From IMG/VR virus record IMGVR_UViG_3300017763_000070, positions 1 to 35,133 of that record: a stretch of 35,133 nt of DNA. One strand, 5' to 3'. Below are positions 1-22,400 of the stretch, in pieces. This stretch comes from a virus. Made by a program: the position numbers and the translations under genes. The notes under the pieces are model-generated. The model made no database searches. It saw only the letters and a program-made list of their open reading frames with translations, and was not told the origin of the DNA. Numbering within the stretch: position 1 is the first letter of the stretch; every line of letters begins with the position of its first letter.

Positions 1-330
1 GACGCCACTAGATTCAGTCGGTTCATTATTTAGTTTATCAAGTTCGTGTCTTTTCTTTTGTAAATCAATTAATTGTGTAGTTACATCAGCTGAGGTTTTA
101 AACATTCCCGCAAGAACTTCAAATGCTCTGGGGTGTTCGGCTTCAACTGCAACTTGCATCATGTGGTCAAGAGCTTCATCAGATTTATCAAGTAAACTTT
201 TTAAATTGTCTCGAGCAATCTTATAATCTTCTTCAGCATCATCAGTAAGATTAACTTCTTTTTGAATAGGAACAAGTGGTTTCGAGTTTGAAACCAACGC
301 CTTATTTATTCTGTCAAGTTTATCGCTCAT
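1..330 (-). CDS. 16: Terminase small subunit gp16, N-terminal 110 residues (3' end outside window)
   Basis: The frame opens with ATG at 330 (MSDKLDRINKALVSNSKPL...) and runs without a stop to base 1, so the C-terminus is missing. The segment 'ARDNLKSLLDKSDEALD' followed by 'AVEAEHPRAFEVLAGMFKT' is the conserved helical core of the T4-like small terminase. That protein forms a ring which recognises DNA and stimulates the large subunit gp17 during head packaging. T4 gp16 is 164 residues, so about two thirds is visible. The gene follows gp15, exactly as in T4, and starts inside the gp15 stop codon (TAATG, one-base overlap). No clear Shine-Dalgarno sequence is present, so translational coupling is likely. 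The family call rests on the core motif plus position. Confidence 0.88.
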   Translation of the reverse strand, partial: MSDKLDRINKALVSNSKPLVPIQKEVNLTDDAEEDYKIARDNLKSLLDKSDEALDHMMQVAVEAEHPRAFEVLAGMFKTSADVTTQLIDLQKKRHELDKLNNEPTESSGV

Positions 331-3062
331 TAGGTATTTCTAGTATTAAACACAGTTCGTGTTCTACCACTTTGTTGGCCAGTTACTAATTCATCTTCAG
401 CATACAATTGTTCTAAATTATTTACTGTAGCTTTATTATTATTTGCACTTAAAACGATCGCTTCTCCAGCTGATATATTTCCTGTTATTCTTTCACCAAC
501 ATTAAAGTCTAAATTTTCTGTAGTTGAAATTGCCATATTTGCTGTATTTCTTCCTACTATTGTCCATTGAGTAAATGGTACATTAAGCACGGGGGAATCT
601 GCATTAGAACTCGCGAGCTCTGGGTCAGCACTAGCTAAGTTTTCATTACTTTGTTGAAGAACCCATTGACTTCCGTTATAATTTATTTCAGCACCACTTG
701 TAGTAGTATGTACATATCTTGGTTTTTTATTAAGTCTACCCGATTTACTATATACTCCATTTAACACGGCAGTATCAATAGAATCAACACTCATTACTAA
801 ATCAGTAAAGGGTGCGTCATATTCATAAATCTTAGCACCCACTCTTTTTAAATCCGCAGTTGTATTCACAACACTTGCTACATTAAATGTTAAATCAAGT
901 GAACCACTACCACCCATATCAGTATCTGCAATAGTAATAGTTTCGCCGACAACATATCCGGTACCAGCAGTAAAATTAGATGAAGATAAAATTACAAAAC
1001 TATTTAGTGTTGCTACATCAAATGTTAAATCCGCGCCTCCGCCTAATGTACTACCAGCAATAGTAAATGTGTCATCAACAGAATACCCAGTACCACCTGC
1101 AATAACGGAAATTGCAGCTTCACCAACAATATCAACTATAACACTAAATTCAGCTCCAGTACCACCAGAAGGTGATACACTATAGTCAGAACTACTAATT
1201 GTATATGTATCCGCAACACGGGCTGTATCCGCAGCACTGATAGTATCAATCGTCGCAATAATTGAAGATGTTGTAGTTACCTCAAATGTTGCTCCAGTAC
1301 CCGAGCCAGATGAAGTACTATTTAAATTACTATATGTACCAGCAGTCCGAGGCCCTTCAGCAGAGCTGACATTATCAATTCCTAATATACCACCGATAAG
1401 AGACAATGAAGTTAATGAACCCGTGCCGTCTTCATTAACTCCAGTAATGGATAATACTAAATCAGTATCTAATGCAGCCCCACCCGGCGCGTTAGCCCCT
1501 AATTGAGCAGCAGATACTGTTAAGGTGTCATTAAGAGCATAGCCACTTCCCGCTTCTCGAATAGTTGGATTAGATAATGCTCCAGTCTGGCTATCTAGTG
1601 TGACATCAATAGTTGCATTAGTACCACTACCCGATGAGGTTGTGGTTCTGTTTTGTAAAACAAATGAAGACTCGGTTTCTCCTAAAGCAACTCCGCTAAG
1701 TTTAATTTGTTGGGTTGTATTATAATCAGCTCCGCCGCGAGCAATTGTTGCTGCGGTTATTGCGCCTGTTTTGTCAAGGGTAATATTAACTGCAGCTCCT
1801 GTACCATGTAGGCCAGGAGAGTCGTTGGGACTATTTAAAACTGGCTCAGTTGCTAAATTTGTTCTAGTAAATGTTGGAGCGTATGTAGCAGTAAAATTAG
1901 AATTAGCTCCATTCCCGCTTGTAATTGATATTGTATCGATTGCACCAGCAAGGTCATCACCCGTGCCATCAAACACACTATCTACAGTTAAAACTAAATT
2001 AACACTATCATAGGGTGATGTGGATATCGTAATTGTTTCAGACGCAATATAACCCGAGCCTCTATTTAATATAGATACACCAGTTGTGGCTCCAGTTAAA
2101 CCATCGACAAGAGCAGTAAAAGACGCATCAACCCCACCGGTATTTGCAACTCCTGTTAAATTAGCTACTGAAGAACTAAAATTCTCGTCTTCTACTCTAT
2201 CAAAATCTGCTGTAGTACCGCTAACAATGGATATTCCGGTTAATCTATTTATTGGCTCAACACCAGCAACTGTAATATCTTTATAGACTAAATCTAGTGT
2301 ATGTACATCTGCAGGGTCTATTAAAGATACAAATGTTCTTATGGTATCTGCTGGAGAATTAGAACTAACATTTACGGAACTTAATGTTCTCGCACTCGAA
2401 GTTGTTACATTTGTAAAATCTGCGATGTCAGTTTCAACCTTTTTAATAATTGAAACTGATGATGTATTAGGAGCAAATCTAGCTCTAATAGTAAAGTCTA
2501 AAGTATATGTAAGTGTTCGTCTTCCAACGTAGTCGCCTTCATAAGTATCATCAAATGATACACCGTTTAAAATAAAAGGAACGTCTGTTTTAGAACCGGG
2601 GCCCTCAATATCTTTTATAGTAACTGTGTATTCGGGTGAAAAGGTTGGAACTATTTGCTCTAGAATTTGTAATGCATCTTCTTGATTTCGAGCTAAAATA
2701 TTTAATTGCATTCCAATTGTATAAGGAACGCTTTGATACATTTTATTTCTTGTTCTAGGAGAATTATTAGTACCTGAAGTAAGTGTTGTATTTAGTCTGT
2801 TTAACTTAGTAGTTGTATCATATTCAATAGAGGTTATTTCAAATGACATTCTCGGCAATTTAATAGCAACTTTGTTACCATCTAAGTCAACATTCATTCT
2901 TGTAATAAACTTTTGAGATGGGCCATACGAAATTGGCACTCGTTGGATATTAGAAATTTTGTCTCCACTGTGTCTGCCCACAGTAATATTATTAAAGAGT
3001 GTACCAAATACTGATACAATTCTTTTTATAGTTGCGTGATAAAAATGTGTTCCGCTAAGCAT
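330..3062 (-). CDS. 15: Tail sheath stabiliser / tail terminator gp15, greatly enlarged
   Basis: gp15 caps the contractile tail and joins it to the neck of the head. The start at 3062 gives 'MLSGTHFYHATIKRIVSVF', the usual gp15 N-terminus, and has a GGAG box six bases upstream. The frame stays open to a GTG at 3089, but that start would overlap gp14 by 35 bases and lacks such a box. The first ~200 residues ('FGTLFNNITVGRH', 'VPISYGPSQKFITR', 'LPRMSFEITSIEYD', 'GRRTLTYTLDFTIRARF') are a complete gp15-like core. T4 gp15 is 272 residues, while this one is about 910. The extra ~640 residues hold GxGY-type repeats, then a segment with 'YNGSQWVLQ' and a final 'GERITG...SAGEAIVL' module. The gene overlaps the gp14 stop by eight bases and the gp16 start by one. 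Core identity is secure; the role of the extension is unknown. Confidence 0.93.
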   Translation of the reverse strand: MLSGTHFYHATIKRIVSVFGTLFNNITVGRHSGDKISNIQRVPISYGPSQKFITRMNVDLDGNKVAIKLPRMSFEITSIEYDTTTKLNRLNTTLTSGTNNSPRTRNKMYQSVPYTIGMQLNILARNQEDALQILEQIVPTFSPEYTVTIKDIEGPGSKTDVPFILNGVSFDDTYEGDYVGRRTLTYTLDFTIRARFAPNTSSVSIIKKVETDIADFTNVTTSSARTLSSVNVSSNSPADTIRTFVSLIDPADVHTLDLVYKDITVAGVEPINRLTGISIVSGTTADFDRVEDENFSSSVANLTGVANTGGVDASFTALVDGLTGATTGVSILNRGSGYIASETITISTSPYDSVNLVLTVDSVFDGTGDDLAGAIDTISITSGNGANSNFTATYAPTFTRTNLATEPVLNSPNDSPGLHGTGAAVNITLDKTGAITAATIARGGADYNTTQQIKLSGVALGETESSFVLQNRTTTSSGSGTNATIDVTLDSQTGALSNPTIREAGSGYALNDTLTVSAAQLGANAPGGAALDTDLVLSITGVNEDGTGSLTSLSLIGGILGIDNVSSAEGPRTAGTYSNLNSTSSGSGTGATFEVTTTSSIIATIDTISAADTARVADTYTISSSDYSVSPSGGTGAEFSVIVDIVGEAAISVIAGGTGYSVDDTFTIAGSTLGGGADLTFDVATLNSFVILSSSNFTAGTGYVVGETITIADTDMGGSGSLDLTFNVASVVNTTADLKRVGAKIYEYDAPFTDLVMSVDSIDTAVLNGVYSKSGRLNKKPRYVHTTTSGAEINYNGSQWVLQQSNENLASADPELASSNADSPVLNVPFTQWTIVGRNTANMAISTTENLDFNVGERITGNISAGEAIVLSANNNKATVNNLEQLYAEDELVTGQQSGRTRTVFNTRNT
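869..2100 (-). repeat. Diverged GxGY-type protein repeats inside gp15
   Basis: At least five degenerate copies of a unit can be read by eye. Its pattern is roughly G-S-G-T-x-A-x-x-x-V-T ... A-G-S-G-Y-x-x-x-D-T-x-T-I ... L-G-G. Examples are 'RGSGYIASETITI', 'REAGSGYALNDTLTV', 'AGGTGYSVDDTFTIAG' and 'AGTGYVVGETITIADTDMGG'. Unit spacing varies from about 43 to 150 residues. The copies differ at the DNA level, so these are old protein repeats rather than recent tandem duplications. The same type of unit occurs once in the giant gp7-like protein, near base 25400. Confidence 0.75.
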
Positions 3063-3945
3063 TGGGTTCTCCAAATGGGTTAAATTCACTAAAGTCGATA
3101 TAGTTATTATTTATCGCTTCAAAGTCGGCAGAGTCGTCGAATGCATCTGTACTATATGTTTCTGAAGTCTTATCTTCGCCGGCCGAAATAGTTGCAATAG
3201 CACCAGACTTGGTTCCTGTAATAACATCTCCAACACCAAGAGTATTAACTGTTCCATCTGTGACAGTTAACGAACCAAGACTTAATATAACTGGTGATTG
3301 GTCTTCATCAATTCCAAGAACTTCTGAAGTGCCAGTTGAAGAATCTGTAAATGCAATATTAACTTCTTCTCCTATAGTAAATACAGAAGTATTTGAATAA
3401 GCTATTCCAACGCTGGTCGTGACTTCTTTAATCTTTTGAACATCATCAATTAAATCAAGTCCGGTATCAATATCTTCACCACTATATTCAAACAGCTCAC
3501 ATGATAGTTTGTATGTTGTAAGATTGTTTAATTGATAAAAAGGTTGTTCATGTTCAACAAACTTAAGTTCAAATAAAGATTTAGACAAAGGTAAATATAT
3601 TAAATCACCTTCTCTAGGCCTTGTTAGATTAGAACCACGAGTCGCTCTAGAGAAACTTCTACGAGCTAAAATTAATGTTACTTGGTCTCTAATTTCAATA
3701 CCAAACTTACCAAGTAAATCTCCATCGCCATCAAAGCCTTCAGTATTTTCAATATACATTTCAACGAGGTAAGCATCATTAAACTTACTCTCTATTGTGC
3801 TATTTAAAATATCGTCTTCACTAATTATTTCGCGAGGAATATAATAGACATCTTGGCCATAAATACTCAGAGCTTCTACGATCATATCCTCGTAGAGGTC
3901 TTTCTCTCCTACAGAGCCCTGTGAAAAATAAGTATTTCTTGCCAT
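3055..3945 (-). CDS. 14: Neck protein gp14
   Basis: gp14 forms the head-completion neck with gp13 and is the site where the tail attaches. The 296-residue product begins 'MARNTYFSQGSVGEKDLYED' and contains 'YYIPREIISEDDILNS' and 'FGIEIRDQVTLILARRSF'. These are followed by 'LIYLPLSKSLFELKFVEHE' and 'YKLSCELFEYSGEDIDTG', the conserved order of T4 gp14 (256 residues). The C-terminal ~130 residues carry a 'GVGDVITGTKSGAIATI' module and end 'IDFSEFNPFGEPNA'. Tails of this kind are typical of marine T4-like phages. The gene starts 12 bases after the gp13 stop, with GAGA upstream, and its last eight bases overlap the gp15 start. Confidence 0.94.
   Translation of the reverse strand: MARNTYFSQGSVGEKDLYEDMIVEALSIYGQDVYYIPREIISEDDILNSTIESKFNDAYLVEMYIENTEGFDGDGDLLGKFGIEIRDQVTLILARRSFSRATRGSNLTRPREGDLIYLPLSKSLFELKFVEHEQPFYQLNNLTTYKLSCELFEYSGEDIDTGLDLIDDVQKIKEVTTSVGIAYSNTSVFTIGEEVNIAFTDSSTGTSEVLGIDEDQSPVILSLGSLTVTDGTVNTLGVGDVITGTKSGAIATISAGEDKTSETYSTDAFDDSADFEAINNNYIDFSEFNPFGEPNA
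3069..3072 (-). promoter_or_regulatory. Shine-Dalgarno GGAG deciding the gp15 start
   Basis: GGAG on the minus strand lies six bases before the ATG at 3062 and inside the last codons of gp14. It supports MLSGTHFYHA... as the true gp15 N-terminus rather than the upstream GTG at 3089. Confidence 0.75.
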
Positions 3946-3957
3946 AATATCATCTCG

Positions 3958-4770
3958 TTATCCTACGTAGAATGCTGGAGGCATTTCATATTTGAGTTGA
4001 ACTTCTTCCTCTATCTTTAGGATTTCTTCGTTAGCTTCATCGTAAATTTGCTGGCCATTCATAGTAACTCCACCTGGAAGCTGCATTCCGTCAAACTTTT
4101 TAATATTTACACCCCATTGTCTTTTAATTAGTGCAGTTAAATACTTCTTTAAAAACATATCATTATATACTTTAGTTGATGTAGCCTCTGTTGGCGCTGC
4201 TACATCAGTACCCGAGCCATAAGTATCAGCGTGATTACTTGTTTTTGGTACTATAGCCTCATAACCTTCAAATACTATAATATCATTTTCTTTTAAATCT
4301 GTGCCCCATCGAGTTTCGATATAAAGTCGACTGATATGTCTATTGAATCGTGTTGTCTGGTCTTTACCATCAAACATGTGGTCTATCAATGCAAGGTGTT
4401 GTTGAGTCATTGAATAGTTCAACATTGAAGAACCGGGCTTAGCCAAATCATACATATCGTTTAACATCATTTGGTACTCAATGTTAAAATCTCCAGTCCC
4501 TCCGGTATTTGAGTTGAATGGAAGAACTCTACTAATAGTAAGATATGTGTCGGGTATAGTAATATACTGATTAGTTATATCAGCAGCCGTTAACTGATAT
4601 TTACGAAATCGTTTAATGACCGCATCAGAATGATATTCTTGATAAAATTGCAATGCTTCGTCAAGACGATCACCTAATTGGTCGTCATCTACATTGATTT
4701 CAATTACTGGAGCCCCAAGAGCTCTTAGGCAATAATCAACTAATGTTTGTCTAGAATATGGCTTTGACAT
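3958..4770 (-). CDS. 13: Neck protein gp13
   Basis: gp13 is the head-completion protein that, with gp14, seals the filled capsid and accepts the tail. The 270-residue product contains 'CLRALGAPVIEINVDDDQL' near residue 14, 'DRLDEALQFYQEYHSDAV', 'YITIPDTYLTISRVLPF' and 'YDEANEEILKIEEEVQLKYE' at the C-terminus. All are strongly conserved in gp13 of T4-like phages (T4: 309 residues). It is the first gene after the fibre block and heads the 13-14-15-16 unit. A TATAAATA late-promoter box ends only five bases before its ATG, and no Shine-Dalgarno box lies between, so a late mRNA may begin at or next to the AUG. The next in-frame methionine is about 100 residues inside, so a later start is unlikely. 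Confidence 0.96.
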   Translation of the reverse strand: MSKPYSRQTLVDYCLRALGAPVIEINVDDDQLGDRLDEALQFYQEYHSDAVIKRFRKYQLTAADITNQYITIPDTYLTISRVLPFNSNTGGTGDFNIEYQMMLNDMYDLAKPGSSMLNYSMTQQHLALIDHMFDGKDQTTRFNRHISRLYIETRWGTDLKENDIIVFEGYEAIVPKTSNHADTYGSGTDVAAPTEATSTKVYNDMFLKKYLTALIKRQWGVNIKKFDGMQLPGGVTMNGQQIYDEANEEILKIEEEVQLKYEMPPAFYVG

Positions 4771-4775
4771 ATATC

Positions 4776-4783
4776 TATTTATA
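4776..4783 (-). promoter_or_regulatory. T4-type late promoter TATAAATA before gp13
   Basis: There is an exact minus-strand match to TATAAATA, the box read by the T4 gp55/gp33/gp45 late system. It lies in the 64-base gap between the 150-residue gene and gp13. Spacing to the gp13 ATG is five bases, which would put +1 at about the A of ATG. Confidence 0.75.
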
Positions 4784-4784
4784 T

Positions 4785-4805
4785 AAAAGCCACAGCCTGC
4801 CTGGC
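4785..4805 (-). terminator. Weak possible terminator upstream of gp13
   Basis: On the minus strand, GCCA - nine bases - TGGC is followed directly by TTTT, which runs into the TATAAATA box. The stem is only four perfect pairs, so a real terminator is uncertain. Its position after the fibre block and before the gp13 promoter is what makes it plausible. Confidence 0.3.
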
Positions 4806-4834
4806 GATTTTAATGTTGAATTATATCCGCGGTT

Positions 4835-5287
4835 CTAAGCGGTTCTAATACCCTTGCCGTTATATACTACTTCATCATCTTCACTATAATTTGGAATCGC
4901 ATCCAATGCAGCTCGAGCAGTTTTTCTTGCTTGAAGTTCTCCACTATACTTATCTAATAGTGGTTGTGTATCTTCTCCTAGAATGCTCGCTTCTTGAATT
5001 TTTGCAACAATCCAATCTGATTCTTCAAGAATCTTTATATTAGCATCAGTTCCAATTAATTCATCAAGAAATGCTTCTGTCAACAGAGTATCATTTATTG
5101 TGGTCTTTCTATTAACCGGGTGTGATTTGTGATTAGGACTATCATTTTCGAAGTCAAATGTGGGGTGGCAATAACAGTTATCGAGCTTTTGCTGTATCAA
5201 AAATGATACGTCAACAAACCCACTGTTCATATTATCTATTTCACCATTTCTTTTATATATTTTGAATAAAAATTTATTTTTTGCCAT
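4835..5287 (-). CDS. Protein of unknown function; possible tail-fibre assembly factor
   Basis: This is a 150-residue protein starting 'MAKNKFLFKIYKRNGEIDN', with an AGGA box upstream of the ATG and 16 bases after the tail-fibre stop. I do not recognise it with certainty. The C-terminal part, 'ILEESDWIVAKIQEA' followed about 20 residues later by 'QARKTARAALDAIP', resembles the 'sDW ... R-x-x-LR-x-IP' pattern of phage tail-fibre assembly and tail-assembly-chaperone proteins. Its place directly downstream of a large fibre gene fits such a role. The N-terminal half has a 'CYCHPTFDFEND' segment with two close cysteines and no family I can name. It has no signal peptide or membrane segment. A minor structural protein is the main alternative. 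Confidence 0.82.
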   Translation of the reverse strand: MAKNKFLFKIYKRNGEIDNMNSGFVDVSFLIQQKLDNCYCHPTFDFENDSPNHKSHPVNRKTTINDTLLTEAFLDELIGTDANIKILEESDWIVAKIQEASILGEDTQPLLDKYSGELQARKTARAALDAIPNYSEDDEVVYNGKGIRTA

Positions 5288-5303
5288 AATTATTTCCTAT
5301 TAT

Positions 5304-8300
5304 TTATTGAGAGTCTGCTAAATATGTTCCCATTTCAGCGAAATAGAAGTTCGTGCCACCTTGGCCTCTTAATAGTACATTTAAGAATCCACCTCTATCA
5401 CCGATATTAGAGCCAATCTTATTGCCAGGAATTTTACATCCAACTAATCTGTGGTTTCCTTGTTGCATATTCATTCCACTACTTACACTCATTCTATCAC
5501 TAAGCCCAGTTAATTGAGTAAAGAACTCGCCATTTGTTCCGTTATTGGAATTTTGAACCCTGCTAGTACCAGCTATTTCCGTCCAACTGCTACTTGTAGA
5601 AATAGCTGTGCCTTCTGCCCTTTGTTGACCATAGTTAATTGATACTCCTTGAAGTTGGTCATTACTCTGGTTACTATGTTGAACAATGAATAATATTAAA
5701 TCTTTTCCTGTGGTGCCAGGAGCAACCGGCACTTTACATAAAGCCCATGTGCTACCTTCCACATAAGCTAAGTTTCTTTCATTCCAGTCACTATTATTCC
5801 ATTCCGCGCCTCTATCATTATGTCCACCATAACTTCCGCCATTAACCGCCCAATGATAGTCAATAGCCCGCGATGAGGCAAATTTGTATTTATTTTGAAC
5901 AAAAGCTAAGCCACTAATCCAACCACCTTCTGATCGATTTATATAATGGTGTCCTCTTTGTAAGAGCCAGTATGTTTCGCTTGACGACCTTGGAATATTA
6001 AACCAACATCCACCATGATGGTCTTGGGTACGACGGACATGGCCAAAGGGAGTATACTGAGGGCCGGAGTGGCCGTAGCCAGCAACTCTATAATTATTAC
6101 CAGGACGTCCATTGGCTCCATTAGCTGAACCAGGCACATTAGCTGTAGTTTGAGATAATAATGCAGTACCAGCAGAATTAAATGGAATCAATCTTAATAT
6201 TTGCCAGTCGTTATGATGGCAATCAACATAAATAGCGTCTGTATTTGCCGGTACATTGATTCTCATACCTTTGTATGTACCACTGGTGTCACGTCTGTGC
6301 CAGCCAATCTCGTACATATATTCTCTATTCCAAGCGGAATCATCATGCGAAGTCATATTGCCCATACCGGAATTATAATTTTCCCAAACTCTACTACGAG
6401 ATGAACTTGATGGGGCATTATTTGCAGCCCACCACATATTAAAAGAGAACTGGCCATTAGATGATCGTGAATTATCCACTGAGTCACCACCACTACCATT
6501 TATACTTGAATAATGATCGTATGTGTGATTTCTATATCTTCCATTTCCGCCAATTGCGGTTGGCTGATTCTCGCTGAACATATTAACAATACTTCTATTG
6601 TCAACATCTGGGTGGCTAGTAAGGAAAGTTCCATCACTAAATTGTAAGCCATCAGTACCAAGGTATAATTTACCCGTAACCTGTGCAGTTCCTGCGGAAT
6701 ATATATTTCCTGTTGCGCTATCAACAGAGAATTGTCTATTTGTAGCGCTAGTTCCTACAAATAAATCACCATTGAATACTCCGTAGTTTGATGAGCCGGT
6801 TCCATTCTGAATGAAAGATGTACATTTTATCTGACCGTCTGATGTTATATTTCCTACATCATCAATATGGCCTGTGTTGGAAACATTAAATGCGTATTGT
6901 CCAGCTTCTCCTGATGCATTACTTCGGATTCTGGCTGATCGAATCGCACCTTCGACTGATAATATAGTAGGATTAGTAGTAGTAAGATTATCGGGGTGAC
7001 CAATTTCGTGAACTCCGTTATTATGTGCTTCAATTACTCCACCAGACCTAATTGACTTAGCTACTGATATTCCACCCTTAAACACCGCTGAGCCTGAAGT
7101 TAAAGTACCATGTGTAGTAGAGCGATCAGATGTGCTATCAACTACCAACTGGTCGCGAACTCTGGTTTGAGAAGTGGTAATTTGCACACCATTAGAAGTC
7201 GAATTATCTGGCATTAGATTAATGACCTTACCAGTACTTTGGTTAACTGCAATGTTCATACCATTTGTAGCATGAACATCAATAGTACCTTGGTGGCCAC
7301 CACCAGAAGTTTCAAATCTTAAATGGTCAGATGAATGACTTCTTAAGTGAAGTACTGCACTCGGGTCTCCGTCAATAGTAGCCTGTTCGTCGTATATAAC
7401 TGTCTGACTATTCATGTGAATAGTACCAGAAGCTACAACAGATAATCTGTCAAGTATCGAACCACTATCTTTTGAGCGAGTCGATAAAGTAAATGGATTA
7501 CCCGTACCCGAAGCAGCTGACATCCGTACTTGTTGGGCGCCAGCCACATTCAAATCAATTATATTGCCAGATTCATTGGTATTTAAAATCAAGCAAGAAC
7601 CATCTTGTCTTGAAGCATAAATTATACCACCTCTATCAGCGCCCGCGGTTCTTCTTAACGAAATTCCTAAGTGTGTATTACCATCACCTACATTGACTGC
7701 ACTGCCATAGTTTTCTGTGGTTGAACCAACCTCAATGTCATCATCTATTGCAGTAACACCAACGGTCAAAGCATTATTCGACTTAGACGCGGAGGTCATA
7801 GGATTCATCGCATGCATTTGGACGAAATTCTCTGATCCAAAAAACATCCGTGGAGTTCTGAAATGAATGTGGTCTCCTCTAGGCGTATCATTACCAGTGG
7901 CAGTTGTAAAAGTATTTGTCTGTATATAAATTGCTTGTTCTCCTCTTGGACCAGAGGTTTCACCAATTCCTATATCGCCATCGTTATAATACCTAAATCC
8001 ATACTCTTCAGCAGTACCCGCGATGTTATTACCAGATGAGTCCTGGTCGTATGTAAATGGGGTTGTCGAATTTGTATTTCTACGAATAGAAAACGTGCCG
8101 CCATCTCCTACAAGTCTGAAATGACCACCTGAAGTATTAGGCGCGGCTTTTCCAACGTAGCCCGGCGAGTTATGTTGACCTATAGTTTGATCCAGTTCTT
8201 CGAAATGAATACCCGCGTAAGAGCCACTTAGTTTGAGGAGCCCAGCACCGCCAGTCTTTTTAACATGTAGAGGGGCTTCTGGACCTGTAGTTCCTATACC

Positions 8301-11300
8301 AAGAGAGCCACCGGTGTCGAGCGTCATTTTTGATACATTATTCGCACGCCATTGTAGTTTATCGGCATCACTATTGTCTAGACGCATGGTCCAGCCATTG
8401 TCGGCAACATAGGAACCTGCTACTTGAAAATGAAGTACTGCATCAGATGTTCCGGTCGACCTCGCAGTTATTCTAGCTTCATCAGTATCGACTACTTCCA
8501 GAGTATTGCCCGCTTCAGCTACTCCAATACCAACTTTACCGTCTTTACCGATACTAAATCTAGTATTATTATCTGCTAATGCAGAATAATTCTCGTGGTT
8601 AGTATATGTTTGTACTACAAAACTTCCGGCTCTAACTCGAACTCTATCGGAAATGTCGGTATTATTTAACATATCATTACCCTTAAATAAGAGTAATTCT
8701 GAAGATTCAGTACCGCCATAAATTCTTTCTACAATTCTGGTATGAGTATCTGCTGAATCTCCAAATGTACCAGCAAATATGATTGAATTTTCAGGTTGAC
8801 CAGCAGTAGAGTTTGCAGAAGCACCAATTGTAATGCTTCCTTTATGAACTGTATTACCTTCAAATGTAACTGTGTTGCTTCCTTCGGGGTATGAGAATAC
8901 TAGAGCATCAGTACCAGCACTTCTTCTAAAGAACCCTACATCATCTAATGGTGCGACCATGGCTGGATTATTGTCACCATTATATTCTATACCACCACCA
9001 TGCGACATCGACTGTCCTACATAGATTCTACCACTACCTTGGCTAGTACCACGAACTAGTAATTCTGAAACTTCAGCATCTGGTGAAACAATATCAATAC
9101 CATGTCCGGTAAAATGACCGCCTGGTGTTACGGTTCCTACACCTACTCTTTGAGCTGACTTGTCGACAATAAATACATCATTAGTAGAATCAACTATAAG
9201 GTCATCTTTAAAGGCAGCAGCCCCTTGAATATTAAGAGTTCCATCTCCATCGATATTACCATCTACAAACAGTTTCTTTTCGATTGAAACACCACCTCTA
9301 GTATGGATTGATGCATCTTCATCTGTAGCACCAGTTGCATCTGCAGTACTATCAATTCTTATTTTTCCGTCAAATTCTGATGTGCCTGAAACGAATAATG
9401 ACCTAACATCATTTTGACTATTTTCACCACCGATTTTAAAGTCTTCAAATGTTCGAACCTCACCCGGCCTAATTCTGAATAGCATATCAGTATTATAGTT
9501 TGCTCCATTGGTCGAGGTTCCTATGAAAGCAAATCCACCGTCGACATCAGTATTATGATTTCCGTCGGTTTTTTCGAATACAATAAAATCGTTAGCACCA
9601 TAATTACCGGTAGTCTGCGATGACATATCGGAAATTTTAATTCTAGTACCATCTGGGTGATTGCCCGGCATGGTCGTCCTAATTCCCATTCTGAACCTGT
9701 CACCATCTGGCGTATCATTTGTATCACCACTCAGAGCATGATCGTGGATTGTAAAAAGGCCATTTGTAAACTTAAAGTCATTGTTTATTTGGACTAAATC
9801 GCCAAATGCATTACCAATTGTAGCATTATTATTGATTGTAAGATTTCCAGTTGCAGATATGTTTCCACCTGAAACAATATTACCTACATCTGAAATATTA
9901 CCTGATGCATCAACATCGAAGTTACCAGATGCTGCTTGGATAGTTGTTCCTACTACTAAATTAGCACCGGCTCTTAAAGTTGATTGAGCGCGTATATCGC
10001 CATTAACATCTAATTTATAAGACGGAGCCATATCTCCGATACCAACTTTTTGAGTAGCGCCATCAAATATTACATAATCAGTGTATGCTTGAGCAAATCG
10101 AATACTTTCAGAGCCATGAGTTCTAATTCTATGGTTGGGATTGGCCTCACTCGCATCAACTAATCCGAAAGATAAATTACCGCCTGAAGCATAAGCAATA
10201 TTAAATGTATCAACATTCGTGCCGGTAGTTCTTTCATCAGCTAATGCTAATCTATGAGAATCAGATGTAGTAGCTCCGTTGATCGCAAATACATTAGTAC
10301 TTGGGTTCATGTCCAATATAGTATTGCTGGCAGATTCATCTCTAAATTGGTGTCTAGCTGAATCATAATATATTCTATTAGCATGGCTACTATTAGTTGA
10401 ACCATATAGTTCAATATTACCACCGCCGCCCGCGGTTGCAAGATCGCCTTGTAATGTAAGGGCAGTGCCTGAAGTCCGACGTCCTATTCTTCCATCGTGA
10501 ATTGTAACCCCAGCATTTGCAATATCTAAATCAGCAAGAGGATTATTTGTTCCGATACCAACTTCATTTGTAGATACATCAACGAATAGAGTATGGTTAG
10601 CATTTGAGCCAACATCTAAATCACCATGTGTGTGGGTATCTCCTGTAGTATTTACAACTCCAAATTTTGCATCGACAGTCGCTGTAGAAGTAGAACTTGA
10701 TGCGCCAACTCTAAAGTCTTGAACAACATTCATTCCGCCGGAACCATTAGCTACTATAACTCCACTTGCTCCAATTATTCTATTCCCAGAGCCGTCGAGT
10801 GCGACTCCGCCAGCATCATTTTCTATTGATGTTAATCTAATTGCATGTGCTCTAAAGTCTGATTCTCTCGGTACATTTAAATCAAAAGTCTGTCCTGTAT
10901 CATATCCGCCTTCAGCATTAGTTTTTAATCCGTATGTAATAAGTGATTGTTCTAATTTACTGATGTGGCCATATGCATCAACTTCTAAATCTGAAATTCT
11001 TTTAAATGAATTATGTGGGTAACCGGGAGTATCATTTACATTTCCGGTATGAGCAAAATCTTTATTAGTAACACCACTTGCAATAGTATTATGTTTTATT
11101 TCATACGTTGATACTTGAGATGCGGCTGCATTAAGAGTGAAAGAGTTTGTACCATTTAATCCATTTACACCATTAATATTAATAGTCGTATTATTCGCAG
11201 AGAAACCTGATACGGTTTGGGCAGCTGTTAATTGCCCTTGAGCATTAACTGTAAATGTTGGCATTGTAATTACTTTTTGATTCTGAGAACCAATAGAGCC

Positions 11301-12071
11301 GTAAGAACCAGCCGAAACTGTGGTATCAGTAATAGATACAACCTTTGTGGTTGTTTCTTCATCAGTTCCAGTAACTGTAATACCAGTAGAAGCATTCACA
11401 TCTTTGACATAATGTCCACGAGTTTTTACGCCCAACTCAATAGCATTATCTAAAATTTTCATATAGCCACTACTATCAACTCCGACGTGGCCATTAATTG
11501 CATTCTCGGCTGTAGTTCCAGTAGTTTCAGCGATTGATTCATTGGAAGCTAATACACCTCCAATTTCACTTGTATCGGAAACATTTAGTGATAAAGTTCT
11601 ATCTGCTTGAAGATTTCCAGTATTTCCGCGATTAGCTGAGCTATCAGTACCTGAAGTTTTTCCAGTTTCGTGAATAGATAAACCTCGTTCTGCAGTAATG
11701 ATAAATCTATCATACGCCTTTTGGTCAAGGTCTCTTGCAATATGTCCTAAATCTGTATCATGTTCAGAAAGCTTTATTGCAACTGTATCTAAATCTGTAT
11801 CATTGCGAGCGATTTGTAATTGTAGACTGTCTAATTCAGTATTATAATCAACAGCTAATTGATTAAAGTTTCTACGAAAATCATCAATAGTAGCTGTGGT
11901 TTTTAATCCGCCACTAGGAAAGGCTAATGTGTCAGCGGCCGCAATAGACAAGCCATAATTAACTGGAATTGTTCCAGTTAAATTTGTACCTAAAGTTAAT
12001 GGTGTGTACGATGGAGTACTATGCTCTCCGCCTAATGCTCCGTTCGGTGTATTGTTTCCGCCTATTGCCAT
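5304..12071 (-). CDS. Large tail fibre / receptor-binding protein (2255 residues)
   Basis: The N-terminus (residues ~1-60) is rich in Gly and Thr and may attach to the baseplate. Residues ~65-130 ('FRRNFNQLAVDYNTELDSLQ', 'DTDLDTVAIKLSEHDTDLGH') look like a trimeric coiled coil. The long shaft contains at least six 'GIGT--P' repeats typical of phage and bacterial fibres, at about residues 504, 674, 975, 1184, 1255 and 1370. Examples are 'VGIGTNNPLADLDI', 'KVGIGDMAPSYKLDVNGDI' and 'LGIGTTGPEAPLHV'. From about residue 1850 the repeats stop. A ~400-residue domain rich in Trp, His, Gly and Asn follows ('MYEIGWHRRDTSGTYKG', 'HHGGCWFNIPRSSSETYWLL'), probably the receptor-binding tip. No S74 self-cleaving chaperone is seen at the C-terminus, although fibres with this repeat often have one. 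It starts ten bases after the 74-residue gene, with an AGGA box. Target receptor unknown. Confidence 0.86.
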   Translation of the reverse strand: MAIGGNNTPNGALGGEHSTPSYTPLTLGTNLTGTIPVNYGLSIAAADTLAFPSGGLKTTATIDDFRRNFNQLAVDYNTELDSLQLQIARNDTDLDTVAIKLSEHDTDLGHIARDLDQKAYDRFIITAERGLSIHETGKTSGTDSSANRGNTGNLQADRTLSLNVSDTSEIGGVLASNESIAETTGTTAENAINGHVGVDSSGYMKILDNAIELGVKTRGHYVKDVNASTGITVTGTDEETTTKVVSITDTTVSAGSYGSIGSQNQKVITMPTFTVNAQGQLTAAQTVSGFSANNTTININGVNGLNGTNSFTLNAAASQVSTYEIKHNTIASGVTNKDFAHTGNVNDTPGYPHNSFKRISDLEVDAYGHISKLEQSLITYGLKTNAEGGYDTGQTFDLNVPRESDFRAHAIRLTSIENDAGGVALDGSGNRIIGASGVIVANGSGGMNVVQDFRVGASSSTSTATVDAKFGVVNTTGDTHTHGDLDVGSNANHTLFVDVSTNEVGIGTNNPLADLDIANAGVTIHDGRIGRRTSGTALTLQGDLATAGGGGNIELYGSTNSSHANRIYYDSARHQFRDESASNTILDMNPSTNVFAINGATTSDSHRLALADERTTGTNVDTFNIAYASGGNLSFGLVDASEANPNHRIRTHGSESIRFAQAYTDYVIFDGATQKVGIGDMAPSYKLDVNGDIRAQSTLRAGANLVVGTTIQAASGNFDVDASGNISDVGNIVSGGNISATGNLTINNNATIGNAFGDLVQINNDFKFTNGLFTIHDHALSGDTNDTPDGDRFRMGIRTTMPGNHPDGTRIKISDMSSQTTGNYGANDFIVFEKTDGNHNTDVDGGFAFIGTSTNGANYNTDMLFRIRPGEVRTFEDFKIGGENSQNDVRSLFVSGTSEFDGKIRIDSTADATGATDEDASIHTRGGVSIEKKLFVDGNIDGDGTLNIQGAAAFKDDLIVDSTNDVFIVDKSAQRVGVGTVTPGGHFTGHGIDIVSPDAEVSELLVRGTSQGSGRIYVGQSMSHGGGIEYNGDNNPAMVAPLDDVGFFRRSAGTDALVFSYPEGSNTVTFEGNTVHKGSITIGASANSTAGQPENSIIFAGTFGDSADTHTRIVERIYGGTESSELLLFKGNDMLNNTDISDRVRVRAGSFVVQTYTNHENYSALADNNTRFSIGKDGKVGIGVAEAGNTLEVVDTDEARITARSTGTSDAVLHFQVAGSYVADNGWTMRLDNSDADKLQWRANNVSKMTLDTGGSLGIGTTGPEAPLHVKKTGGAGLLKLSGSYAGIHFEELDQTIGQHNSPGYVGKAAPNTSGGHFRLVGDGGTFSIRRNTNSTTPFTYDQDSSGNNIAGTAEEYGFRYYNDGDIGIGETSGPRGEQAIYIQTNTFTTATGNDTPRGDHIHFRTPRMFFGSENFVQMHAMNPMTSASKSNNALTVGVTAIDDDIEVGSTTENYGSAVNVGDGNTHLGISLRRTAGADRGGIIYASRQDGSCLILNTNESGNIIDLNVAGAQQVRMSAASGTGNPFTLSTRSKDSGSILDRLSVVASGTIHMNSQTVIYDEQATIDGDPSAVLHLRSHSSDHLRFETSGGGHQGTIDVHATNGMNIAVNQSTGKVINLMPDNSTSNGVQITTSQTRVRDQLVVDSTSDRSTTHGTLTSGSAVFKGGISVAKSIRSGGVIEAHNNGVHEIGHPDNLTTTNPTILSVEGAIRSARIRSNASGEAGQYAFNVSNTGHIDDVGNITSDGQIKCTSFIQNGTGSSNYGVFNGDLFVGTSATNRQFSVDSATGNIYSAGTAQVTGKLYLGTDGLQFSDGTFLTSHPDVDNRSIVNMFSENQPTAIGGNGRYRNHTYDHYSSINGSGGDSVDNSRSSNGQFSFNMWWAANNAPSSSSRSRVWENYNSGMGNMTSHDDSAWNREYMYEIGWHRRDTSGTYKGMRINVPANTDAIYVDCHHNDWQILRLIPFNSAGTALLSQTTANVPGSANGANGRPGNNYRVAGYGHSGPQYTPFGHVRRTQDHHGGCWFNIPRSSSETYWLLQRGHHYINRSEGGWISGLAFVQNKYKFASSRAIDYHWAVNGGSYGGHNDRGAEWNNSDWNERNLAYVEGSTWALCKVPVAPGTTGKDLILFIVQHSNQSNDQLQGVSINYGQQRAEGTAISTSSSWTEIAGTSRVQNSNNGTNGEFFTQLTGLSDRMSVSSGMNMQQGNHRLVGCKIPGNKIGSNIGDRGGFLNVLLRGQGGTNFYFAEMGTYLADSQ

Positions 12072-12080
12072 ATTTGTATC

Positions 12081-12305
12081 CTATTTTTGGTTAAGAGCTC
12101 CGCCTTCAACCATTTTATAAATCATATCTTTTAAATCTTCTATTTCTTTTCTTAAGCTCACTATTTCTTGGTCTTTGGTTAGTTGATGTTTCTTTTTTTC
12201 CATGTACCTTTCATAAGCTTCGTTGTCTATATTTATAACAGCGTGCGATGATTTATCGCGAACTAAACTAGGATTATTTTCAACATGTAAATATTCTTCA
12301 CTCAT
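12081..12305 (-). CDS. Small coiled-coil protein of the structural cluster
   Basis: This 74-residue protein starts inside the stop of the DUF4815 gene (TAATG), which suggests translational coupling. The N-terminus 'VENNPSLVRDKSSHAVINID' matches a short motif I recall from small hypothetical proteins of marine T4-like phages. Residues ~28-67 are charged and heptad-like ('LTKDQEIVSLRKEIEDLKDM'), predicting a coiled coil. Its place between the DUF4815 baseplate protein and the tail fibre suggests an adaptor, a fibre accessory protein or an assembly factor, but no function is established from sequence. It has no signal peptide or membrane segment. Confidence 0.83.
   Translation of the reverse strand: MSEEYLHVENNPSLVRDKSSHAVINIDNEAYERYMEKKKHQLTKDQEIVSLRKEIEDLKDMIYKMVEGGALNQK
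12230..12237 (-). promoter_or_regulatory. Possible internal late-promoter box before the tail fibre
   Basis: An exact TATAAATA on the minus strand lies within the 74-residue gene, about 160 bases upstream of the tail-fibre ATG. It could give the fibre its own late transcript. However, it lies in coding sequence (Val-Ile-Asn-Ile codons) of AT-rich DNA, so chance is a real possibility. Confidence 0.3.
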
Positions 12306-15300
12306 TATGCTGTTGCTATCGCTCTAAAGTTCATACATCTTGGAATTATTGCGCTGTCATCTCCTGTAATATTTCCTGCGGTGTGTGTACTTAATACTAA
12401 TTTAATTTGGAATAAATCAAAGTTATATTCAGCAGCAGCCGCAGAGTCAGGTGTTCTAAAGTGGACTTCGTTGAATCCGCCTGCTACAGGTATTTCGACC
12501 GAATCTAATTTAGTAAACGTCCCACCTCTTGTAAATCTGATATAAGCTTCTACATTAGCCTGTGGTGCTGGTCGTTGTACATCTAGATAACAATCTACTC
12601 TTGAAGCAGCACTATCTAGTCTAACCATATTTGTAATATATCGAGCCTTAGCAGTACCATGAGTAGCGCCTGTTTCTCCTGTTAAATTTGCTCCACCATT
12701 AATTGTATTAGCAAAAGTCAGTAAAGATAATCTATCCAAATCAATAGTCGGTGTTAAGAACTCGTTTCCGGTCGATAATTCACAATATAATTGAAGTTGA
12801 GTAGGATCGTCATACTTAATAGTTTCGCCTAATTCTAGTACTTCATTAGGTTCTATTTGATACGTTGTTGTTACATTTGCTTGAGATTTTACTTTCAAGA
12901 AATATCTTATTTCGGTTTCTGGTAATACAACTGATTCTGCTATTAAATTAATAGAATCAATTCTTAGTTGATTACTTGAACTCAATGCTGCGTCATAAAC
13001 ATTTTCAGGTGATATCGTTACAAAATCTCCGTATGCAGTGTGTGTTGAAGAATTACCAACTGTTCTAGAGTATGGAGAGGATGTTGATAATTCACTTTCG
13101 TTGAACTTAGCATATCTTAAGTGAAACTTAAAGTCTTTATTTTGGTCTGGTGTCCAAGTTGATGCATTAGCTGATTTAAGAGCTACACCAGTATAAGGGT
13201 TCTTTGTAATTCTTTTACCAGTAGTGACATCATCTTTACCAACTTCTGAATGCCATAGGAAATATTCAGGCGAATTAGATAATACTACAATAGCATATTC
13301 AACCCCGCCTTTAAGATGGACTAATGACTCAAAAGTAAATGTTGTTGCAGTCGCTGCAGTAGTAGATACATTAACTTCGTCAAATTCTTTTTCTACTTCA
13401 GAAAAAGGAATTACGTTTTGAGTTGGTATACCATTTTCACATGGTACAAGCTGTATTCTCACTGGTAATGCGTTGTGCTTCTGTCTGAAGAACAAGTCAA
13501 CATCTTTTACAAATACTCCTGCAGGATATTGGTCGGGGTCTACTACAAACGTTTGAGCTAATGGGTCAACGTGACGAATAGCCTTAACAGCTTCTTCAGT
13601 TCTTGTAACAGACTTGCTCTCTTTTACTCTTCGCTCACTAACTTTTACAGTTCTTGTTGATATTATAGTCTCTTGGAGTGTATTTACTATACCACGAGCA
13701 GTATACGTAGCCATGGCATAAGTAGTTGAGATTGATAAATCATTTGAAGTATTATCAATTAATCTAAATTCTCTTTCTCCAGTTTTAAATCGTAATCTTC
13801 TCTGATTAGGAATAATAAAATCACCGGAAACTCTACCTCGACTATCACTTACAATCGCGCTACTGGTAATGCTACCACCTTCGCTAGTGGGCCGACTATT
13901 GAATCTGTCTCGTCTAGTTATATTGTTTCTCCACCTTCTACGAGTATAACTTGAATTTCCTGTGGCGTAACTAGAAATATTTACACCATCAAAAAACGGG
14001 TAAAGAGTAGTATTTGGTTTAAACCCGCTTCCGAAAAAATAAACTCTCCTAGAACGAATAAATGGTACAAAAGATACATCAACTATCTTATCACCTAAAG
14101 ATTGCGTGATTGGTGGACCTTCTTCGGCGAATTGCCTAATACCAGTCCTTGTCATAGTACCTTTTTCTGCTTTTTGCTCAATTTGAACTCGAGCTCGCCG
14201 TAAATTTGTAGTACTTACTGTGCCTCCATTAAATGTTGGAAAATTAGTAGATGCTGGTGTCCACCGCCATCTCCTATTGCTTCTCAGCCGCCAGCTACGC
14301 GTAGCGGCCGTAGGCCAGAACCCAGGTGTTGTAGTTCCTAATCCACGAGCCACAGCCTGCGCGCCAGTTATTTCACCTAAATTTGTTTTAGTTACCTTAC
14401 CACTCCAAGTAGTATTCCAATCATTCCAGCGGGTGCCTTGAGAAGCTAACTGCTCATTCATTACATTTAATAACGCATCTACGTTACCATCTTGTTTAAT
14501 AATAACATCTGGTCTTCGTCTAGTATCTTTCCAATGGTCTGACGATGGAGAGAGTCTTACTTTACCTACCCAAGATGCAACATCGAATGGATTAACACTT
14601 ACAGCAACTGCTGCTTTGTCTTGATTAATTAAAGTTCTTACAGAAGTAACTGGTAGTCTAATTAAGTCTTCTCCTGCTGGGTCATTTGCTGCTCCAGTTT
14701 TTGGTGTAGAACCAAATGTCGCATCAGTAGTAAGATTTGTAGCAGTATTTCTAATGCCCAAATCCTGAGAAGTGAACGAAGGTCTTAATATACCTTCTTC
14801 GGGGTCTACCGCAATAGCAAATCCAGGGTCGCGAGTATCAGATTTGCCGTGTCCTTTAAACTCGTCAACTAAAATACCATTCTTGAATCGGTCACCAGTA
14901 TTATCAAATATTTGTTTATCTGATGTAGCTTGTTCTAATAAAGATAATGATGTATAATATTCTAAACTCTTAACCCGCTTTTCAAGTTTACCAATGTCAC
15001 GCATTGTGTATCTTTTATTATTTTTATATTCAATTTGAATGTTTTGAACCGAATTTGTAAATGGAGGTATATACAATTCGTAAAGCATCATTGAGTCATT
15101 TGGTACTTCAAGTGGAACTCCCGCGATTGAGTTACCTTCTAAATAAACAAATTTACCAGCAGTATTTAATACTATACGGTCGTGACGATCAAGATAAAAT
15201 TCTATTCCGCCTATTTCGATTATACCATTTGGGTCTAAATCTGAATGAGAAGTGTGTCTAAAATCTAAAAAGTCACTTGCAGGAGCACCATCAACAAATG

Positions 15301-19414: not shown

Positions 19415-22400
19415 CTATACTGCACCGCCATCTGTTATTATCCAGTTTTTACCTGTTATACTTGATGCCGAAGATGTATGAGAAGTTGTCAATACTGCCT
19501 TAGAGGTAACTGGATTAGTTAATACTGAATCTACCGTTGCGCTAGAATCAAGTTGAGTTGTTTTTGCTAATATATTTTTATAGTTACTACTTCCAAAATG
19601 AGCATTAAATTTATCTGCATCAGTAAATTGGATTGTCATAGCATTTGTACCTGGCGCAGCTATAACTGCAGAGATTACGGGTTCTGCTTGATTAGTTGCA
19701 TCTGTAACTTTAGGAGTACCAGAAATTCCTGTTCCACTTACAGTCATTCCATTTACTATAGTGCCTGATAGAGTACCAGTCAATTTAAGTTTATTTGATG
19801 TGAACACCAAATTTGAGTTGTTGCCTACAACGCCATCTCCCGTAGAAGTCAGTGCCGGTGTTATAGTAATTGTTCGTGCTCCAACTGCTGTTACTGTACC
19901 AGGATTTGGGAAATCCGCGTCTCCCATATCTACTGTCATACCAACTTCGATACTTCCAATAGCATTACCAGATGCTCCTGTAAATGTATCGACCGGAATT
20001 ACTGTATGACCAGCTATACTTGGGAATTGAAATTGGACATTAGTTGTAATATTTTGAGTCAGGTTAGCGGCTGCTCCATTATCTTGTCTTACGATAGTAA
20101 TAACATTTCCAACTATAGAACCAATTACTACTGTCATACCACTTGGGAACCCCGCATTTTGTGATTTAACTATATCACCGACTGCTAAGTCCGCAATGGT
20201 TTGTGTTTCTCCATTTGTGAAGTTCTTTAAGGTAATTGTATTTGAACCACTGGCAACTGAACTAGCAGCTTTTGCAAACTTCTGATTTATCTTAGCAGTA
20301 ACAGCTGCTGTAGCAGTTCCACCAGTAATCGCTCCGGTAATAAATACTCCGCTAGGTAATGAACTATTTTGTGACCAAGTTAGATAGCATCGGTTTAGTT
20401 CGTCTGTATTAATTTTGTTATTAAGGAACGCGTCTTTGAGACCTCCAGCGGTTCCTCGAACTAAAGAGTTTATATTTCTACTATGCAATCCAATAACCTT
20501 TAGCGTTCCACTAGTAGCACTAGATAATTTAGCTAAGTTAGCCATAGTTGTTACATTAGAAGTATCCATACCTCTCATATCAAGAGTTACTAGAGCTGAG
20601 CAATTTTCGAATGCGGAAGTCATATCAGTTACAGCACTAGTATTAGTTACTCCTGCAACAGTTGTAACACTTTTCAGTTTTACGCAATCTTTAAACATTG
20701 TAATCATACCAGTTGAACTAAATGGATTGTTACCAATATATGCGGTCTCTAAAGAATTTTTCCAATTAGCTCTTGCTGTGGTTTTAGCCGAACTGGATGC
20801 AGTTGATGAACTAGCAGATGTAGTACTAGAAGAGTTTAGTACATGATAGCTGCCTGATATTTTTATGTCATATGTATTTCCAACTCCACCAGTGTATGTG
20901 TGATATAAATCTTTGTCTCCGGTAAATTTAATAATATTAGTTGAACCATCACCCCAGTCCACGAATGCACCCATCGCGCCACTAATATTTTGTAATGGCA
21001 GAATAATTGAAGCATTAGTTCCAGTAAAGCCATTAGCTGCAGAGAAGTTAACATTGAATACTGAATCAGTACTACTAGGTATTGGTGTAAATTTCTCCTC
21101 AGCAATATCAGTATAATTTGTTGTTTTATTATTTACTGTAAATGATTCATTTAACTTTACACTAAACTTATCATCTTCAATCGCGTGGAAATACTCGCCC
21201 AGTGTTTTCTTATTATCTGATATAACCCCTCTCCAAGATATAACTGGTATTTCTTTAGAGGTCATTTGTGGATTAGTTTTATATGTAAATTCACCTTCTA
21301 CCAACTCTTTAAGAGAAGGTTCTGAGCCATCAACTAAATCAACCCGCGGACTATAAAATTGTACTGGGTCTTCTGTATTTCTTGGATTTCCTTGTATTAA
21401 GCAATCGACTTTGATGTGAGCAATATTTGAACTAAATATCCAATCACCCTGTTTAGTATTTGTAACAGTACTTATCTTATTGGTATTACCTGCAAGGTAT
21501 ATTCCACTATCAGCATGAGCTGAAAATCCAGTAGGGTCTGTAGATGCTGGGTGTATGTGAGCTACGAACAATAACCATTTATCATTATTTCCTTTAGCAG
21601 ATTCTGCAACACTTGTAGCAGAGTTCGGCCCAATATCAAAATCATTAATAAATGTTCCAATTGGTGTTTGGGTATTTCCATTACTCACTTCTAACGGAGT
21701 TGTAATTGCAGCATCAGTAGCTCCACGCCATCTAATAATTTTGTGAGCTCCCATATCACTAGTATAACTAGAAGAGCCGGGTGAATCAGCAGAGAATGTA
21801 GTATCAGATTGTTTTACCCAAACTGAGAATCGATACATTCTTTTGCTATCTACCGCAACTGATGGAGTCCTAAATCCACCATCAAAGTAACTAAAGTTGG
21901 TTGAAACATTACCTGGGCTATCATCTCCTGTTGGGTCTTCTGATATATTACCCTTAATAACTTCTCCAGTTCCTTTTTCTAATCCAAATAGAGGGTCTTC
22001 ATAAGCTACTACTTGGCCATCGGTTAGTGAATTTGTGAAATAATCAGTCACGACTTGCGTCTGACCAGGGCTTTGGTGTACAATTGATTTTATGTTAAGA
22101 GGAGACCCTATGTAAAGCGTTTCTTTCATACCTGCTTTAAGCACCCCACTACCAACAGTACCAGTTTTTGCAGCCCGCTCTTTTAGGTTAATAGTTCGAG
22201 TTGCTGGTCTAAATGTTAAAGTAGTATTATTGCTAATAGTAGCTGCTTGGCTTAATACAATAGGAATAACAGACTTTCCAGTATCATTATCTCCTTTAGT
22301 GCCTTCATAATTTACTGATGCGACAGTAACAGTTCCACTGATTCCAGTTCCAGTTACCCGCATACCTGGTTCGATCGCTCCCATTGTTGTAGCTGGGCTA

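Follow-up and report, generated by a model that had tools for sequence, protein, structure and literature searches.

A long insert with GxGY beta modules in the T4-type tail terminator gp15 of an uncultured marine virus

Tail terminators are usually viewed as compact, conserved rings. In the stretch of DNA analysed here (35,133 nucleotides, hereafter the window), which comes from an uncultured marine T4-like virus, the gene for the tail terminator gp15 (positions 330–3062, minus strand, stop codon at 330–332) encodes 910 residues (95.0 kDa), against 272 in T4. This 3.3-fold enlargement raises the question of what the additional sequence is, where it has come to lie within the protein and what it might do at the neck of the virion.

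Identity and anatomy of the long gp15

The frame is open throughout its 910 codons, from an ATG at 3062 to the stop. A GTG at 3089 is an alternative start that adds nine residues, but the ATG was preferred because homologues favour it. The Pfam profile T4-gp15_tss (PF16724) matched the product with 222.6 bits (E=5.9e-66, cut-off 25) over approximately residues 6–225, that is, 15–234 of the 919-residue frame that was scanned. It was the sole Pfam match at E≤1, with no Ig-like, lectin or carbohydrate-binding domain retrieved. PHROG 227 (tail sheath stabilizer) also matched (E=7e-71), and a PDB sequence search returned the T4 gp15 structures (4huh, 4hud, 3j2m and 9mkb) as the only solved relatives, with residues 6–214 aligned to T4 residues 4–217 (E=8e-21). 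Structure prediction of the whole product, which an earlier note on this DNA had proposed as a check, proved informative for the core and not beyond it. In the AlphaFold2 model, most core blocks reached 60–92 pLDDT (the first and last blocks were lower) and the core model matched T4 gp15 (9mkb) in Foldseek with E=1.8e-16, whereas nearly everything past residue 208 or so fell below 50.

The neighbourhood is that of T4 as well. The gp14 neck or head closure gene (3055–3945, minus strand, 296 aa; PF11649 E=1.9e-35, phrog_460 E=1e-82) precedes gp15 and shares eight bases with its start. It is itself preceded by the gene for the neck protein or head–tail adaptor gp13 (3958–4770, minus strand, 270 aa; phrog_211 E=1.1e-37), which could be aligned with T4 gp13, and gp15 is followed by the small terminase gp16 (1–330, minus strand; phrog_445 E=1e-25), cut by the window end. 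The order 13-14-15-16 is also found in contigs L002, L003 and L098, in the isolate Pelagibacter phage Mosig EXVC030M and in T4. The window protein is thus a genuine T4-type tail terminator, with the family, fold and gene order of its T4 counterpart. A scan for promoters and terminators gave chance levels, and megablast of the first 25 kb of the window against isolated phages returned zero matches.

Two other large genes of the window are worth recording. Directly upstream of the neck genes, positions 5304–12071 (minus strand) encode a 2255-residue protein of fibre-like composition, for which no Pfam or PHROG match was obtained. Between gp6 (baseplate wedge) and gp8, positions 19415–32428 (minus strand) encode 4337 residues with a Pfam Baseplate_wedge match at residues 322–389 (E=7e-7) and a weak ILEI match at 1120–1196; it is possibly a very large wedge protein of the gp7 type.

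Four parts can be distinguished in gp15, all on the minus strand. Residues 1–214 (2421–3062) form the core with the tail terminator fold, delimited by the Pfam and Foldseek matches and by its low dN/dS (see below). They are followed by a linker (approximately residues 215–255; 2298–2420) that aligns with T4 gp15 203–245, the stretch contacted by the C-terminal arm of gp14 (PMC12270204); a similar linker, SPTAIRTFVSFINPDD, is present in L018. The core had earlier been considered complete within the first 200 residues or so. It is indeed there, but together with the gp14-contact linker it reaches to about residue 255. At the other end, residues 842–907 (342–539) form a terminal module of the GErITG.iSaGeA type, retrieved with 41.3 bits (E=2.3e-11) by an HMM trained on the tails of eight gp15s from outside the window's family. 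This module is not apparent in the aligned T4 gp15. It also ends ordinary gp15s of approximately 310–340 aa, where it directly follows the linker, and modules of its type occur in gp14s too. In L018, the nearest fetched relative outside the long-gp15 family by core identity, the linker, approximately 20 residues and then the terminal module follow one another before the contig ends inside the gene. The intervening segment (approximately residues 256–841, with inferred and approximate boundaries; 540–2297) is absent from about 90 IMG/VR gp15s. Because the terminal module matches the tails of short gp15s and the segment is missing from these proteins, the additional sequence is best read, from the alignments, as an insert of some 585 residues between core plus linker and terminal module, rather than as the plain C-terminal extension that had been supposed.

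The sequence beyond residue 255 amounts to 66.6 kDa per chain with a pI of 4.05. Lysine and arginine together make up 2% of residues 300–735, and the whole protein has zero cysteines. The motif GxGY occurs four times, against 0.20 expected from shuffles. A 42-position module profile was started from the modules in the window's gp15 and refined iteratively on every frame fetched; as a control, the HMM was rebuilt without any gp15 member and 500 shuffled extensions were scored. The control HMM still matched gp15 with 58.2 bits (E=1.6e-17), the best shuffle reaching 8.5. It placed module 1 at residues 310–350 (2013–2135; 27.4 bits, iE 7e-8), module 2 at 420–456 (1695–1805; 14.4 bits, iE 8e-4), module 3 at 480–519 (1506–1625; 21.7 bits, iE 4e-6) and module 4 at 634–671 (1050–1163; 17.7 bits, iE 7e-5), all on the minus strand. 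A degenerate fifth module at 680–718 (909–1025, minus strand) scored 24 bits with the all-member HMM and 7.7 bits (iE 0.098) once gp15 members were removed. An hhalign comparison of a gp14-type array alignment with the window extension was weak (E=0.015), and the homology of the modules is therefore based on the HMM scores and their shuffled controls. The earlier claim of a gp15 enlarged more than threefold and bearing GxGY-type beta modules is therefore borne out by the PF16724 match, the two lengths and the module HMM. The roughly 640 further residues of beta-repeat sequence are not: the extra part exists, but the four clear modules and the weak one cover only about 190 residues in all.

Recurrence, variation and selection of the long form

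The long architecture was found in five further IMG/VR contigs (L002, 977 aa; L003 and L004, 725 aa; L098 and L099, 725 aa), each with gp14 before it and gp16 after it. L003/L004 and L098/L099 are near-identical pairs, which leaves about three lineages with the window's included. Among 176 complete gp15 frames, a biased and non-random sample made up of the top matches for a small number of queries, the median length was 269 aa and only seven exceeded 500 aa, six of which belong to the window's family. In the 2010 isolate records that gave a gp15-type match, query coverage nowhere reached 80% and was about one-third for the best ones listed.

In the array and C-terminal region of the long gp15s, dN/dS was mostly 0.15–0.34, compared with 0.03–0.06 in the core for informative pairs. 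The closest pair, L003/L004, gave 0.03 in the C-terminal region with few changes. From these values it follows that the extra part is translated and constrained, evolving faster than the core, and it is under purifying selection. Its length varies by segmental gain or loss: L002 carries a block of approximately 66 aa absent from the window's gp15, and much of the window's array is missing from L003. In a patch beside the insertion site (residues 215–300, 86 codons), the window and L002 differ by a single synonymous change, whereas the 214 codons of the core have 38, which looks like recent recombination.

GxGY modules in neck, sheath and baseplate proteins

Scored independently of gp15, the GxGY module was detected in the gp14 of 11 loci. 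In gp15 it was detected in eight, namely the six long ones, L101 and Mosig. It is also present in the sheath protein gp18 of L101 and in baseplate-type proteins of L100, and the extension of the window's gp15 reaches gp9 of S-RIM50 by BLAST. No locus had the module in both gp14 and gp15, but with 170 loci chance alone would give only about 0.5, too few for mutual exclusion to be read from this; most loci had it in neither neck protein. Within gp14, the GxGY modules come after the core and ahead of a conserved anchor at the C-terminus (D-F-T/S-E-x-N-P-F-G), which a strict pattern retrieved from 83 of 91 gp14s. The window's own gp14 lacks the module and ends in DFSEFNPFGEPNA. Since the C-terminal arm of T4 gp14 contacts gp15 203–245, the insertion sites of the two proteins map to one region of the neck.

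Cultured phages show both arrangements. The gp14s of cyanophages S-SSM7 (762 aa), P-SSM2 (470 aa) and B23 (468 aa) contain four GxGY modules each, while their gp15s, of approximately 280–360 aa, have none. The Mosig gp15 (QOI69014.1, 532 aa) has two GxGY-type modules after the core, with about half the extra length of the window's protein and a different domain between the modules, so that outside the core the two are similar at module level only. Among 80 proteins closely related to the Mosig gp15 (core 71–90% identical), the match was confined to the first 258 residues or so, and the Mosig extension thus appears to be optional. A lectin fold suspected by eye in this protein was not confirmed. 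Adhesion-type domains were retrieved elsewhere: Laminin_G_3 in the gp14 of L080 (E=2.7e-9) and in that of S-SSM7 (7.6e-6, just below cut-off in one search and above it in a separate one), and a Big_9/cadherin-like match on the gp15 of L093 (4e-18). In the literature searched, we recognised no account of inserts in cyanophage neck proteins.

The fold of the module was approached through the four-module gp14 array of L071, modelled with a mean pLDDT of 77.6 and a pTM of 0.55. No PDB entry matched the model (best E=1.4). Predicted cyanophage structural proteins, one of them named Gp14 neck protein, matched it down to E=4e-9, at module level, because superpositions of the whole array were poor (TM-scores at most 0.51).

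Several further irregularities were noted in these loci. In two different contigs (L084, 2786–4998; L045, 3149–5001), gp14 is split inside the first GxGY module: the first frame ends TCA-TAA, a stop overlapped by the ATG that opens the next frame (−1; TCATAATGG), and the second frame carries the GxGY modules and the C-terminal anchor. A programmed frameshift or coupled re-initiation yielding two chains could account for this, as could mutation; the related gp14s of L061, L074 and L087 are single frames. The gp13 of L002 (1132–2154) has 340 aa, with approximately 70 residues inserted after residue 60, and insertions in the neck therefore extend beyond gp14 and gp15. A cupredoxin-like stretch (YYYCKNHAKMGG and YTYQCTVGGHENMVG), recognised by eye and with a sub-threshold Pfam hit in L043 alone, lies at the end of the 424-aa gp15 of L043 (2857–4131) and inside the gp14 of L080. 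In S-8S29 (L189), two proteins of 1464 and 2489 aa (1185–5579 and 7150–14619) are encoded in the baseplate cluster and annotated 'neck protein', labels that were probably carried over through shared modules.

Possible roles of the insert at the neck

T4 gp15 forms a hexameric ring that caps the sheath and the tube (PMC3004832). In the virus studied here, the gp15 core would likewise cap the sheath and dock to gp14, and the insert of about 585 residues would project from the outer surface of the neck. A hexamer would then bear six acidic, beta-rich arms of about 65 kDa each, every arm consisting of four to five small GxGY modules and other sequence that is probably beta-rich as well. A location of the extra part on the outside, as had been suggested earlier, is what would be expected from its position and its mass per chain. 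Such arms may form a variable, exchangeable display site, built of modules also used in gp14, sheath and baseplate proteins, and their likeliest use would be to give the virion a weak, multivalent hold on glycans of the host or the extracellular surroundings ahead of receptor binding. We give this reading as a whole about an even chance.

What speaks for adhesion is that adhesion-type domains occur at these sites in relatives (gp14 of L080 and S-SSM7, gp15 of L093), that sheath and baseplate proteins share the GxGY modules, that the insert varies in size among close relatives, and that a neck carbohydrate-binding module (CBM) of one 936 lactococcal phage binds the host (PMC6669499). Against it, Pfam recognised no lectin or carbohydrate-binding domain in the window's gp15, the GxGY fold had no PDB match that might hint at binding, and the full-length model gave no confident shape or placement for the arms. 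The 936 neck protein (NPS) resembles this gp15 in bearing variable C-terminal binding modules, one CBM of this group having bound host cells, but it is a separate siphophage protein with a BppU-like base, and the window's gp15 has no recognised CBM. T4 Hoc is comparable in that variable modules displayed on the surface are strung on a conserved portion that binds the virion (PMC10385173); it differs in being a separate capsid protein with Ig-like domains, for which gp15 has no Pfam match.

The main rival, to which we assign a rather low probability, is that the arms wrap the neck or the top sheath ring, stabilising the head–tail joint as capsid-cementing decoration proteins do. It is consistent with the contact between T4 gp15 and gp14, GxGY modules being found at that junction in both proteins, and with the location of the segment between core and terminal module, which would allow tethering at either end. 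However, most relatives do without an insert, as the median gp15 length and the module-free gp14 and gp15 of most loci indicate, and neither the strong variation in insert length between close relatives nor a dN/dS several times that of the core is what a fixed structural clamp would be expected to display.

It is unlikely that the arms replace T4 fibritin (wac) as whisker-like rods holding or retracting the tail fibres, although the location would be right. The earlier note had found no recognisable wac in the window, and the profile search agrees: Fibritin_C (PF07921) was undetected there, the T4 control giving E=2e-34. It likewise had no match in seven records from marine relatives (Mosig, HTVC008M, P-SSM2, S-SSM7, Syn19, B23 and C48C1); that of Mosig is estimated to be 76% complete (PMC7892664), and a divergent fibritin may escape such a search. 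HTVC008M and C48C1 have gp15s of only 271 and 258 aa, so the absence of a detectable wac does not track the extension, and the suggestion that the extension stands in place of wac is weakened. The fibritin-binding domain of T4 gp13 (residues 190–239; PMC12270204) points both ways: most aligned marine gp13s are shorter in this span (29–33 residues), in favour of a replacement, but the window's gp13 keeps 50 residues there, of unrelated sequence. Moreover, T4 fibritin is a separate trimeric coiled-coil protein that shares with the insert only its neck location, and what can be recognised within the insert is beta modules rather than coiled coil. Adhesion or surface decoration fits the comparative sequence data better than fibritin replacement would.

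We consider it very improbable that the extra part is translated and then missing from the virion, cleaved after assembly or serving as a folding aid. Processing is common among phage structural proteins, and the predicted structure beyond the core is not confident, but the terminal module of ordinary gp15s is retained at the very C-terminus, under selection. Finally, although the window is a metagenomic fragment, the chance that the long gp15 is an artefact, through misassembly into a chimera or misreading of a gene fusion, is negligible, given five independent further contigs with the same architecture, an open frame and dN/dS well below 1.

Under the favoured reading, a six-armed display site used for weak adhesion, the enlargement is modular virion decoration, known in kind, with a fold that has no solved match. 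More tentatively, GxGY may be an undescribed small beta module without a solved relative that marine T4-like phages shift among gp14, gp15, sheath and baseplate for display, with the gp14/gp15 junction as a preferred site and a fast-changing role of the neck in host holding. Shared modules of this sort may mislead annotation, as with the S-8S29 baseplate-cluster proteins called 'neck protein'. Cultured phages with module-bearing neck proteins exist, namely Mosig for gp15, and S-SSM7 and P-SSM2 for gp14. The gp15 family described here tolerates an insert of approximately 65 kDa per subunit and the adjoining gp14 accepts similar ones, so that the neck of such marine phages is a variable surface and not a plain joint. 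Present in several virion proteins, the GxGY modules look like surface decoration that can be moved between proteins and that probably helps to hold on to host cells.
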